Virus record (IMG/VR): IMGVR_UViG_3300036852_000217
Location: 1-29,425 of that record
DNA: 29,425 bases
Origin: a virus
Reading direction: 5' to 3' (one strand)
In this document: positions 1,428 through 21,559 of the stretch, in pieces
Layout: the number at the start of each line of letters is the position of its first letter
Position numbering within the stretch: the stretch's first letter is position 1
Notes under the pieces: generated by a model
The model's database searches: none
What the model saw: only the letters and a program-made list of their open reading frames with translations
What the model was told of the DNA's origin: nothing
Translations under genes and position numbers: made by a program

Positions 1428-1503
1428 TGGTGGCGATGGTGGGATTCGAACCCACACTGTATCGATTTTAAGTCGACTTCCTCTGCCATTGGGATACACC
1501 GCC
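1428..1503 (-). tRNA. tRNA-Leu (anticodon UAA), class I shape, CCA encoded
   Basis: Read on the minus strand, a 7-bp acceptor stem GGCGGTG/CATCGCC is closed by A73 and an encoded CCA (1428-1430). The T arm is GTGGG-TTCGAAT-CCCAC. The anticodon stem GTCGA/TCGAT encloses loop CTTAAAA, giving anticodon UAA. The D stem is only 3 bp (TCC/GGA). The variable region is 5 nt (ACAGT), whereas bacterial tRNA-Leu normally has a long variable arm. The identity therefore rests on the anticodon alone. UUA codons are common in this AT-rich phage, so a supplementary UUA decoder would make sense. Confidence 0.9.
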
Positions 1504-19497: not shown

Positions 19498-20235
19498 GTG
19501 GGACAACCTAATCCTCCAGGAGACAATGTGCCTCTTATTGAGGGACTGGATTCTTCTTGGAACGAAATTGTAAGTGCTATTCCTGAAGATAGAAGAACCG
19601 AATTAGGTCCTAAACTTAAAGAACGTATTACTGCTACGACTTCGCAATATGAGCCTCTTAAGCAGTGGGAAGATCTTCAGAAATCTGGAATTACTCCTGA
19701 TTTTGCTGGTACGGCTATTGGTTTATTTAATCTCATTGAAAACGATCCTAAGCAGGTTTATGAAGCAATTGGAAAACATTTAAACATTACACCAGCACAG
19801 GCTAAAGAAGTTGTTGAAGAAGTTCAAGATGGAGATCAGGATGATCCTCGAATTCAAAGAATGGAACAACAACTTGAAACTTTAGCTCAAATTGCACTTG
19901 CACAACGTCAAATGACTGCTCAAGAACAACAAGCTGCCGAAGCTGATGCTGCTGTGGATAAAGAACTTAGTGACCTCAAATCTAAAGTTGGCGATTTTCC
20001 AGAAGATGAAATTGTTATGCGCATGTTGCATAAAGATATGACAGCTCAGCAAGCTTATGAAGAATACTCTGGTCGTGTTTCTGAACTTCAGAAGCGTCGT
20101 CCTGCACCTATGCTTATGGGTCAAGGTGGCTCTATTCCTTCTAGAGCTATTGATGTTAAGAAGTTGGATAGTAAGGAAACAAAAAATTTAGTGGCTCAGA
20201 TGCTTGAGTCGGCTAATGTAGAACGTAATAAGTAA
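19498..20235 (+). CDS. Scaffolding protein
   Basis: GTG 19498 follows AAAGAGAGTTAAGA. The 245 residues are acidic, helical and Gln-rich, with a coiled coil at about 115-165 (RIQRMEQQLETLAQIALAQRQ) and a short C-terminal helix (KETKNLVAQMLESA). This composition and the position directly before the major capsid gene identify an internal scaffold. It guides procapsid assembly and is released before DNA fills the head. No protease motif is visible here. Confidence 0.8.
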   Translation: MGQPNPPGDNVPLIEGLDSSWNEIVSAIPEDRRTELGPKLKERITATTSQYEPLKQWEDLQKSGITPDFAGTAIGLFNLIENDPKQVYEAIGKHLNITPAQAKEVVEEVQDGDQDDPRIQRMEQQLETLAQIALAQRQMTAQEQQAAEADAAVDKELSDLKSKVGDFPEDEIVMRMLHKDMTAQQAYEEYSGRVSELQKRRPAPMLMGQGGSIPSRAIDVKKLDSKETKNLVAQMLESANVERNK

Positions 20236-20236
20236 T

Positions 20237-20255
20237 TTGAGAATTAACTTCTCAA
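20237..20255 (+). promoter_or_regulatory. Hairpin and AT-rich leader before the capsid gene
   Basis: TTGAGAA (20237-20243) and TTCTCAA (20249-20255) form a perfect 7-bp stem directly after the scaffold stop. No T-run follows. TATAAT occurs at 20289-20294, but no good -35 box stands 17 bases before it. The hairpin may protect or separately regulate the capsid message. Confidence 0.45.
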
Positions 20256-20320
20256 CGTAGTTGAATTATTTTAAATTTACATTACTTTTATAATTCATTC
20301 TATGTTGGAGGGCAGTAACC

Positions 20321-21559
20321 ATTACTACCACACTTACAACCGCTGCTAATATTCTTAAGGAAGTTTACGAACCTCAGATTCGAGATCAGCTACAGTCTGA
20401 AGTTATTACTATTTCTCGAATTGAAAGAACCTCTGAAGGAGTTGCGAATGACTCTGTAGGAGGTAAATACGTTCGATTTGGTGTTCGAGTTAAGAGAAAC
20501 CATGGTATTGGTTCTCGAAATGAGATGGAAGCACTTCCTAACCCGAAAACTCAGGATTACCGAGATGCTCAGTTAAGACTTTCTTATGGTTATGGTGCTA
20601 TTCAGCTTTCTGGGCAGTCTTTCGAACTAGCAGAATCAGATGTTCAGGCTTTTGCGAGTGTTCTAGACCAAGAAACGACAGGTATTAAAGAAGGTCTTAA
20701 AAAAGAAACTAACCGTCAAGCGTATGGAACTTCTCAGGGTGTTTTAGCTGTTGCAGCTTCTGGTACTACTACTACTTTTGTAGTTGGATCTGCTTCTGGT
20801 TTACAGTACCTTGAAATTGGTATGTTTGTTGATGTTTACGATGCCACAAGCACTGTGGCTGCTCCTGTTTTAAATAATGCTAATATTGAAATTACTGATA
20901 TTACTCCTTCTACTCTTACTGTTACTTTAGGTACTGCTGTTACAGCTGTTGCAGTTGGTGACTTTTTAACTCGTACTGGTTCTCATCAAAAAGAGCCTGT
21001 TGGTTTTGAGCAGATTGTTGCAGGTTTAGCTTCTACTGCTACTGCTCTTGGTAACGGTGCTGGTGCTCTTTATAACATTACACATGGTACTTGGACTGGA
21101 AATATGGATACGACTGCAGGAGCTATCTCCGAAGGTCGTATGATTAATATGATTGATGCTATTCGTACTCGTGGTGGAACAACTACTGTTGGTTTTTGTT
21201 CTCTTGGTGTTCGTCGTGCATATGCTAACTTATTAGAACAGCAGCGTCGATATGTAAATACTACTAAGTTTACTGGTGGTTTTTCTGGTATTGCTTTTAC
21301 CACTGATAATGGTGAAATTCCTATTGTTTCAGATTTTGATTGCCAAGCTGGTCGTCTTTATTTTATGAATGAGAAAGAAGTTAAGATTTATCGTGCCGCT
21401 GATTGGTCTTTCATGAATCGTGATGGAAATATGTGGCAGCGACTTATTGACTCTTCTGGTGAATATGATGCTTATCGTGCTCGTATGTTTAGCTATTGGC
21501 AGATTGGTACTCACAGGCGTAACTCACACGGATTAATGACTTCTATTATTGAGGCGTAA
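20321..21559 (+). CDS. Major capsid protein (HK97-type fold), AUU start
   Basis: The frame is open upstream of ATG 20525 to an in-frame stop at 20291-20293. No ATG, GTG or TTG lies between. The ribosome site GGAGGG (20307-20312) stands 8 bases before ATT 20321. Starting there gives 412 residues beginning MTTTLTTAANILKEVYEPQI, a typical capsid N-arm. The Met of ATG 20525 is residue 69 and would lose that arm. Residues about 140-220 form a beta-rich insertion like that of the 159-aa protein. The remainder (FCSLGVRRAYANLLEQQRRY and the C-terminal domain) fits capsid subunits. It forms the icosahedral shell. Confidence 0.88.
   Translation: MTTTLTTAANILKEVYEPQIRDQLQSEVITISRIERTSEGVANDSVGGKYVRFGVRVKRNHGIGSRNEMEALPNPKTQDYRDAQLRLSYGYGAIQLSGQSFELAESDVQAFASVLDQETTGIKEGLKKETNRQAYGTSQGVLAVAASGTTTTFVVGSASGLQYLEIGMFVDVYDATSTVAAPVLNNANIEITDITPSTLTVTLGTAVTAVAVGDFLTRTGSHQKEPVGFEQIVAGLASTATALGNGAGALYNITHGTWTGNMDTTAGAISEGRMINMIDAIRTRGGTTTVGFCSLGVRRAYANLLEQQRRYVNTTKFTGGFSGIAFTTDNGEIPIVSDFDCQAGRLYFMNEKEVKIYRAADWSFMNRDGNMWQRLIDSSGEYDAYRARMFSYWQIGTHRRNSHGLMTSIIEA

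Follow-up and report, generated by a model that had tools for sequence, protein, structure and literature searches.

A probable AUU start codon conserved in the major capsid gene of a clade of soil phages

Conserved AUU-type start codons are known in few genes, mostly regulatory ones, in which weak initiation is the point. AUU and other codons without a final G are discriminated by initiation factor 3 (IF3; PMC4611024). In Streptomyces, IF3 represses sigR, a gene with a GTC start, and thereby sets the balance between SigR and RsrA (PMC5472188), and in S. aureus cvfC1 a conserved AUU is combined with a strong, extended Shine-Dalgarno (SD) sequence, non-canonical starts in that system giving about one-tenth of the expression obtained with AUG (PMC13009471). 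In the open PMC subset, no phage capsid gene turned up that is described as starting at AUU; this absence is weak evidence, as much of the older literature lies outside that subset.

Here we analyze a candidate for such a start in a virus record of 29,425 bases (IMG/VR record IMGVR_UViG_3300036852_000217; "the window" denotes this whole stretch), in which a first-pass annotation had read the major capsid gene from an ATT at position 20321. An IMG/VR scan yielded 20 relatives, and two wider scans added more. Our main reading, to which we assign a probability of about 0.78, is that this ATT is a genuine start that arose once and was kept, with initiation that would be lower and sensitive to IF3 and with an SD and leader that would offset the weak codon.

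Position of the capsid start

Four features define the region, all on the plus strand of the window:

20321 to 21559, plus strand: major capsid protein gene as read from ATT 20321, 412 codons and a stop, PHROG 14242 major head protein
20321 to 20323, plus strand: candidate ATT start codon, shared by 14 contigs (9 distinct sequences); outgroups have ATG, GTG or TTG at the aligned codon
20525 to 20527, plus strand: first in-frame canonical start, an ATG at codon 69 counted from the ATT and the pick of a standard ORF caller
20307 to 20320, plus strand: Shine-Dalgarno sequence GGAGGG with spacer CAGTAACC; GGAGGGCAGT is identical in 9/9 distinct AUU loci and absent in L004, a close relative

A TAA stop at 20291–20293 closes the capsid frame upstream, leaving it open from 20294 to 21559. 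As the first-pass annotation had stated, the window sequence contains no ATG, GTG or TTG in this frame between the stop at 20291 and ATG 20525, and GGAGGG (20307–20312) does stand 8 nt ahead of ATT 20321, with the spacer at 20313–20320. After the ATT the window reads ACT ACC ACA CTT (TTTLTTAANILKEVY). The match to phrog_14242 spans capsid residues 2–412 in a profile comparison (E 5.6e-81), as for a full-length member of the family, and no in-frame canonical start yields the conserved capsid protein, the pattern expected of a gene with a non-canonical start.

The boundary of coding sequence falls at the ATT. Per-codon-position differences were computed over ten loci, namely the nine AUU loci and L004. 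Codons 2–9 show a clear coding pattern (differences of 0.083, 0.044 and 0.494 at positions 1, 2 and 3, respectively), and codons −8 to −1 in the same frame are patternless (0.436, 0.472 and 0.464). Since periodicity runs from the ATT onward and is absent before it, coding appears to begin at the ATT. The spacer between SD and ATT is one base shorter in L012 and L018, which rules out a conserved frame upstream, and ATG 20302, which lies upstream in a different frame in the window, is missing in several relatives. Together, the boundary, the shifted spacer and the non-conserved ATG 20302 leave the ATT as the sole near-cognate boundary codon common to all AUU loci. That its third base never varies says little by itself, because Ile codons in the capsid gene are mostly ATT (216 ATT and 23 ATC, or about 90% ATT) and, among the columns of the capsid alignment where Ile is invariant, half contain nothing but ATT; the main support for the start assignment therefore comes from the coding boundary and from the alignment to known start codons.

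Conservation and origin of the AUU codon

ATT occupies the homologous codon in the window and in 13 IMG/VR records from different metagenome accessions, and the nine distinct sequences among them have capsid identities to the window of 70–88%. It is kept there together with the SD, with one reversion, in L004 (85% identity), which carries ATG at the capsid start. More distant relatives (45–59% identity) begin with ATG, GTG or TTG, many exactly here and others 1–3 codons off, and the capsid start is ATG in the isolated relatives Microbacterium phage Shocker, Cellulosimicrobium phage DS1 and Arthrobacter phage Jasmine. Whether relatives carry ATG at this place, a point raised by the first-pass annotation, therefore has a divided answer: close relatives have ATT, apart from L004, which like the outgroups starts canonically. 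Comparative evidence strongly supports the earlier proposal that the capsid protein begins at this codon: the starts of relatives align with it, codon periodicity sets in at it, the frame upstream is not conserved, and SD and AUU are. The full-length protein thus very probably begins at this AUU.

In a maximum-likelihood tree, the AUU sequences and L004 form one clade (100/97), within which the ATG-bearing L004 is nested as the sister of L002 (98/97). These sequences are most simply explained by a single change from ATG to ATT at the base of the clade and a single change back in L004, whose ATG is a probable reversion. On our main reading, AUU would have arisen once in the clade ancestor, at a codon that is ATG in the nearest outside relatives, and would then have been retained.

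Conservation extends to the sequence around the start. In the nine AUU loci, GGAGGGCAGT, a spacer of 3 or 4 bases and ATTACTAC are nearly invariant, and bases farther upstream diverge; L004 has AGAAGGGTTTGGA ahead of its ATG and lacks GGAGGGCAGT. With as many as 3 mismatches allowed, the leader pattern TGGAGGGCAGTANCNATTAC has a single occurrence in the window vs. 0.02 expected. The SD of the AUU capsid genes is above the median of clade starts and not extreme, about 20–23% of other starts scoring as high or higher. An IMG/VR pattern scan for GGAGGGCAGT with NT[ACG] codons and AC-N-AC returned 83 matches, with no capsid relative among the readable loci, and four extra matches of the ATT pattern were rejected as chance. 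Separately, the ATT is bracketed by a short inverted repeat, AGT(A)..(T)ACT (window 20314–20326); the repeat is present in AUU loci, with only three-base arms in L003, and missing in the ATG-using L004.

Non-canonical initiation appears to be confined to the capsid gene. Searching by homology for further non-canonical starts proved too noisy, and a targeted start table was used instead. In nine clade genomes, the other structural genes start canonically at the homologous position or close to it, with a few short or overlapping ORFs ambiguous; the 120 structural-gene starts, chosen as canonical, comprise 106 ATG, 13 GTG and 1 TTG. We therefore rejected a clade-wide or host-wide AUU habit, as no AUU start was seen in the other structural genes of these nine genomes.

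AUU could also be the true start and have no regulatory role, being mildly weak, fixed, and offset by a strong SD and strong late transcription. The return to ATG inside the clade in L004 implies that AUG is viable, and the capsid SD falls in the stronger part of the distribution, both of which suit such a neutral history. However, AUU and the exact GGAGGGCAGT have been retained across 70–88% identity although one base change restores AUG, and the capsid gene alone does so when compared with the other structural genes of nine genomes. We regard a start of no regulatory consequence as somewhat unlikely.

Leader element and alternative readings

Two further features lie upstream of the capsid gene:

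19498 to 20235, plus strand: upstream gene with a GTG start, PHROG 33339 (unknown function), whose stop is 85 nt before the ATT
20237 to 20263, plus strand: leader element, a hairpin of TTGAGA (20237–20242) and TCTCAA (20250–20255) overlapped by CAACGTAGTTG (20253–20263)

The upstream gene probably encodes a scaffolding protein, judging by its position and the gene order. In all ten loci, including L004, the leader element sits 62–76 nt upstream of the start, directly after the stop of the preceding gene, and consists of TGAGR-loop-YCTCA followed by CAACGTAGTTG, with an arm base altered in L002 and a single substitution in CAACGTAGTTG in L005 and L012. RNAalifold predicts two small leader stems with two pairs changed on both sides, including a stem with a two-sided G-C/A-U exchange. 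A sigma-70 promoter was rejected as an identity for the leader on inspection of the sequences, because the spacing from the conserved motif to an AT-rich box is inconsistent between loci. The covarying hairpin and CAACGTAGTTG hint at further control of the capsid gene.

Such control could take the form of a translational switch, in which the leader hairpins (TGAGR..YCTCA and CAAC-GUA-GUUG) would be bound by a protein or base-pair with the ribosome-binding site and the weak start would create the dependence. Retention of the element in 10/10 distinct loci, with its two-sided exchange, is consistent with a switch, as is the minimum-energy fold of the window, a single-sequence fold that pairs the leader with the SD region (z −3.63). 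Against it, the predicted SD-blocking folds are not the same from locus to locus, and some score no better than shuffled sequences (L017, z 0.23; L012, z −0.09), L004 retains the leader element despite its ATG start, and an Rfam search with the element returned no matching family. A switch of this kind is unlikely, and masking of the SD by the leader is only a suggestion from predicted folds.

Initiation elsewhere, whether at codon 69, at a non-AUG codon farther upstream or at an upstream ATG followed by a frameshift, is very improbable. Although gene callers choose ATG 20525 in the window, a start there would delete conserved N-terminal capsid residues; residues 1–68 are conserved and under purifying selection, and we rejected ATG 20525 because these residues stand before it. 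Ahead of the ATT, the frame shows neither conservation nor a coding pattern, and a frameshift from ATG 20302 was rejected on account of the loss of that ATG in several relatives. A further in-frame ATG, at codon 5 and 20 nt from the SD, occurs in L005–L011 and L017, where initiation at codon 5 may take place; it is absent from the window and from five other AUU loci (L001, L002, L003, L012 and L018). An ATG-to-ATT sequencing or assembly error at 20321, which the first-pass annotation had named, as regards sequencing, among the observations that would overturn its reading and for which nothing more than the rarity of AUU starts speaks, has a negligible probability, as independent assemblies refute it with the identical base in 14 contigs from different metagenome accessions, diverged sequences included.

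Proposed mechanism and comparison with known systems

On the preferred reading, that of a genuine and retained AUU start, ribosomes would bind GGAGGG and thereby place AUU in the P site, where fMet-tRNA would pair with it through two standard pairs and a third-position mismatch, giving a capsid N-terminus of (M)TTTLTTAANILK. Sequence comparison establishes where the codon lies, that it is conserved, that the capsid gene alone uses it and that it arose once; from there we infer initiation with fMet, at a lower rate per mRNA than with AUG and with sensitivity to IF3. AUU probably lowers capsid initiation per mRNA in this way, with the strong SD and fixed leader compensating, and its use would adjust the amount of capsid protein to that of the upstream product or to the state of infection. 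The first-pass suggestion that the codon sets a translation level or is under IF3 control would fit the known biology of non-canonical starts (PMC5472188, PMC4611024). Nonetheless, it is odd that a phage should reduce initiation on the most abundant protein of its virion, and this counts against the explanation. AUU may have been kept for balance with the upstream, probably scaffolding, gene, for timing during infection, or as a neutral change. More specifically, the clade might gate capsid synthesis through the combination of AUU, the fixed SD and spacer motif and the RNA element, dependent on IF3 or the state of initiation and serving to time the capsid or balance it against the upstream gene; we advance this tentatively, as a possibility that is more probably wrong than right.

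The phages come from soil, and their host is probably an actinobacterium, because the closest isolates infect actinobacteria and one Streptomyces genome carries a relative at 49% identity. No IF3_C match, as autoregulation of the infC type would call for, was found in 11 phage records, several of them partial; nor was an IF1 or KsgA-like factor found in the phage records searched, several of them likewise partial, or an initiator-like tRNA in the phage records searched.

Two other observations concern the gene content of these phages. A tRNA-Leu(UAA) lies at window 1428–1503 on the minus strand, and likewise in four long relatives (G004–G007); the phage uses TTA heavily (147/334 Leu codons in 16 structural genes). 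Clade phages also contain matches to the peptidase inhibitor I36 family, one above the Pfam cut-off (G004:C1:22965-23186, L222) and one below it (G006:C1:42801-43013, L223).

An AUU fixed in the gene for the most abundant protein of a phage, accompanied by a leader conserved with it and by a relative that has naturally reverted to ATG, would make a clean system for testing the benefit of a weak start. Gene callers would cut 68 residues off such capsid proteins, or 4 where codon 5 is ATG (L005–L011 and L017), and miscalled capsid starts affect both annotation and structure work.

The known precedents for AUU-type starts (infC, pcnB, sigR and cvfC1) are mostly regulatory genes. The AUU start of E. 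coli pcnB reportedly limits translation, as we propose for the capsid AUU, and the pcnB product is a low-abundance cellular enzyme, unlike the capsid protein. In infC, which encodes IF3, an IF3-discriminated start is conserved, as in the capsid gene, in the form of ATT in E. coli, ATC in Streptomyces (PMC5472188) and AUA in S. aureus (PMC13009471). However, infC is an autoregulated cellular gene, whereas here the gene encodes a phage capsid protein and the phage records searched hold no IF3 gene. The sigR start resembles the capsid start as a conserved non-canonical actinobacterial start that sets the balance of neighboring gene products (PMC5472188), but sigR encodes a regulatory sigma factor and uses GTC, and its IF3 dependence was measured, whereas that of the capsid AUU is predicted. 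Like the capsid gene, cvfC1 has a conserved AUU behind a strong conserved SD (PMC13009471); it encodes a cellular protein of 61 residues, and the extended SD–anti-SD pairing of cvfC1 is not evident at the capsid gene. Finally, the Jasminevirus-like actinophages (Arthrobacter Jasmine, Microbacterium Shocker and Cellulosimicrobium DS1) have a homologous capsid protein (37–39% identity) in the same gene order, but start it with ATG after a gap of 14–36 nt from the upstream gene, compared with 85 nt here.
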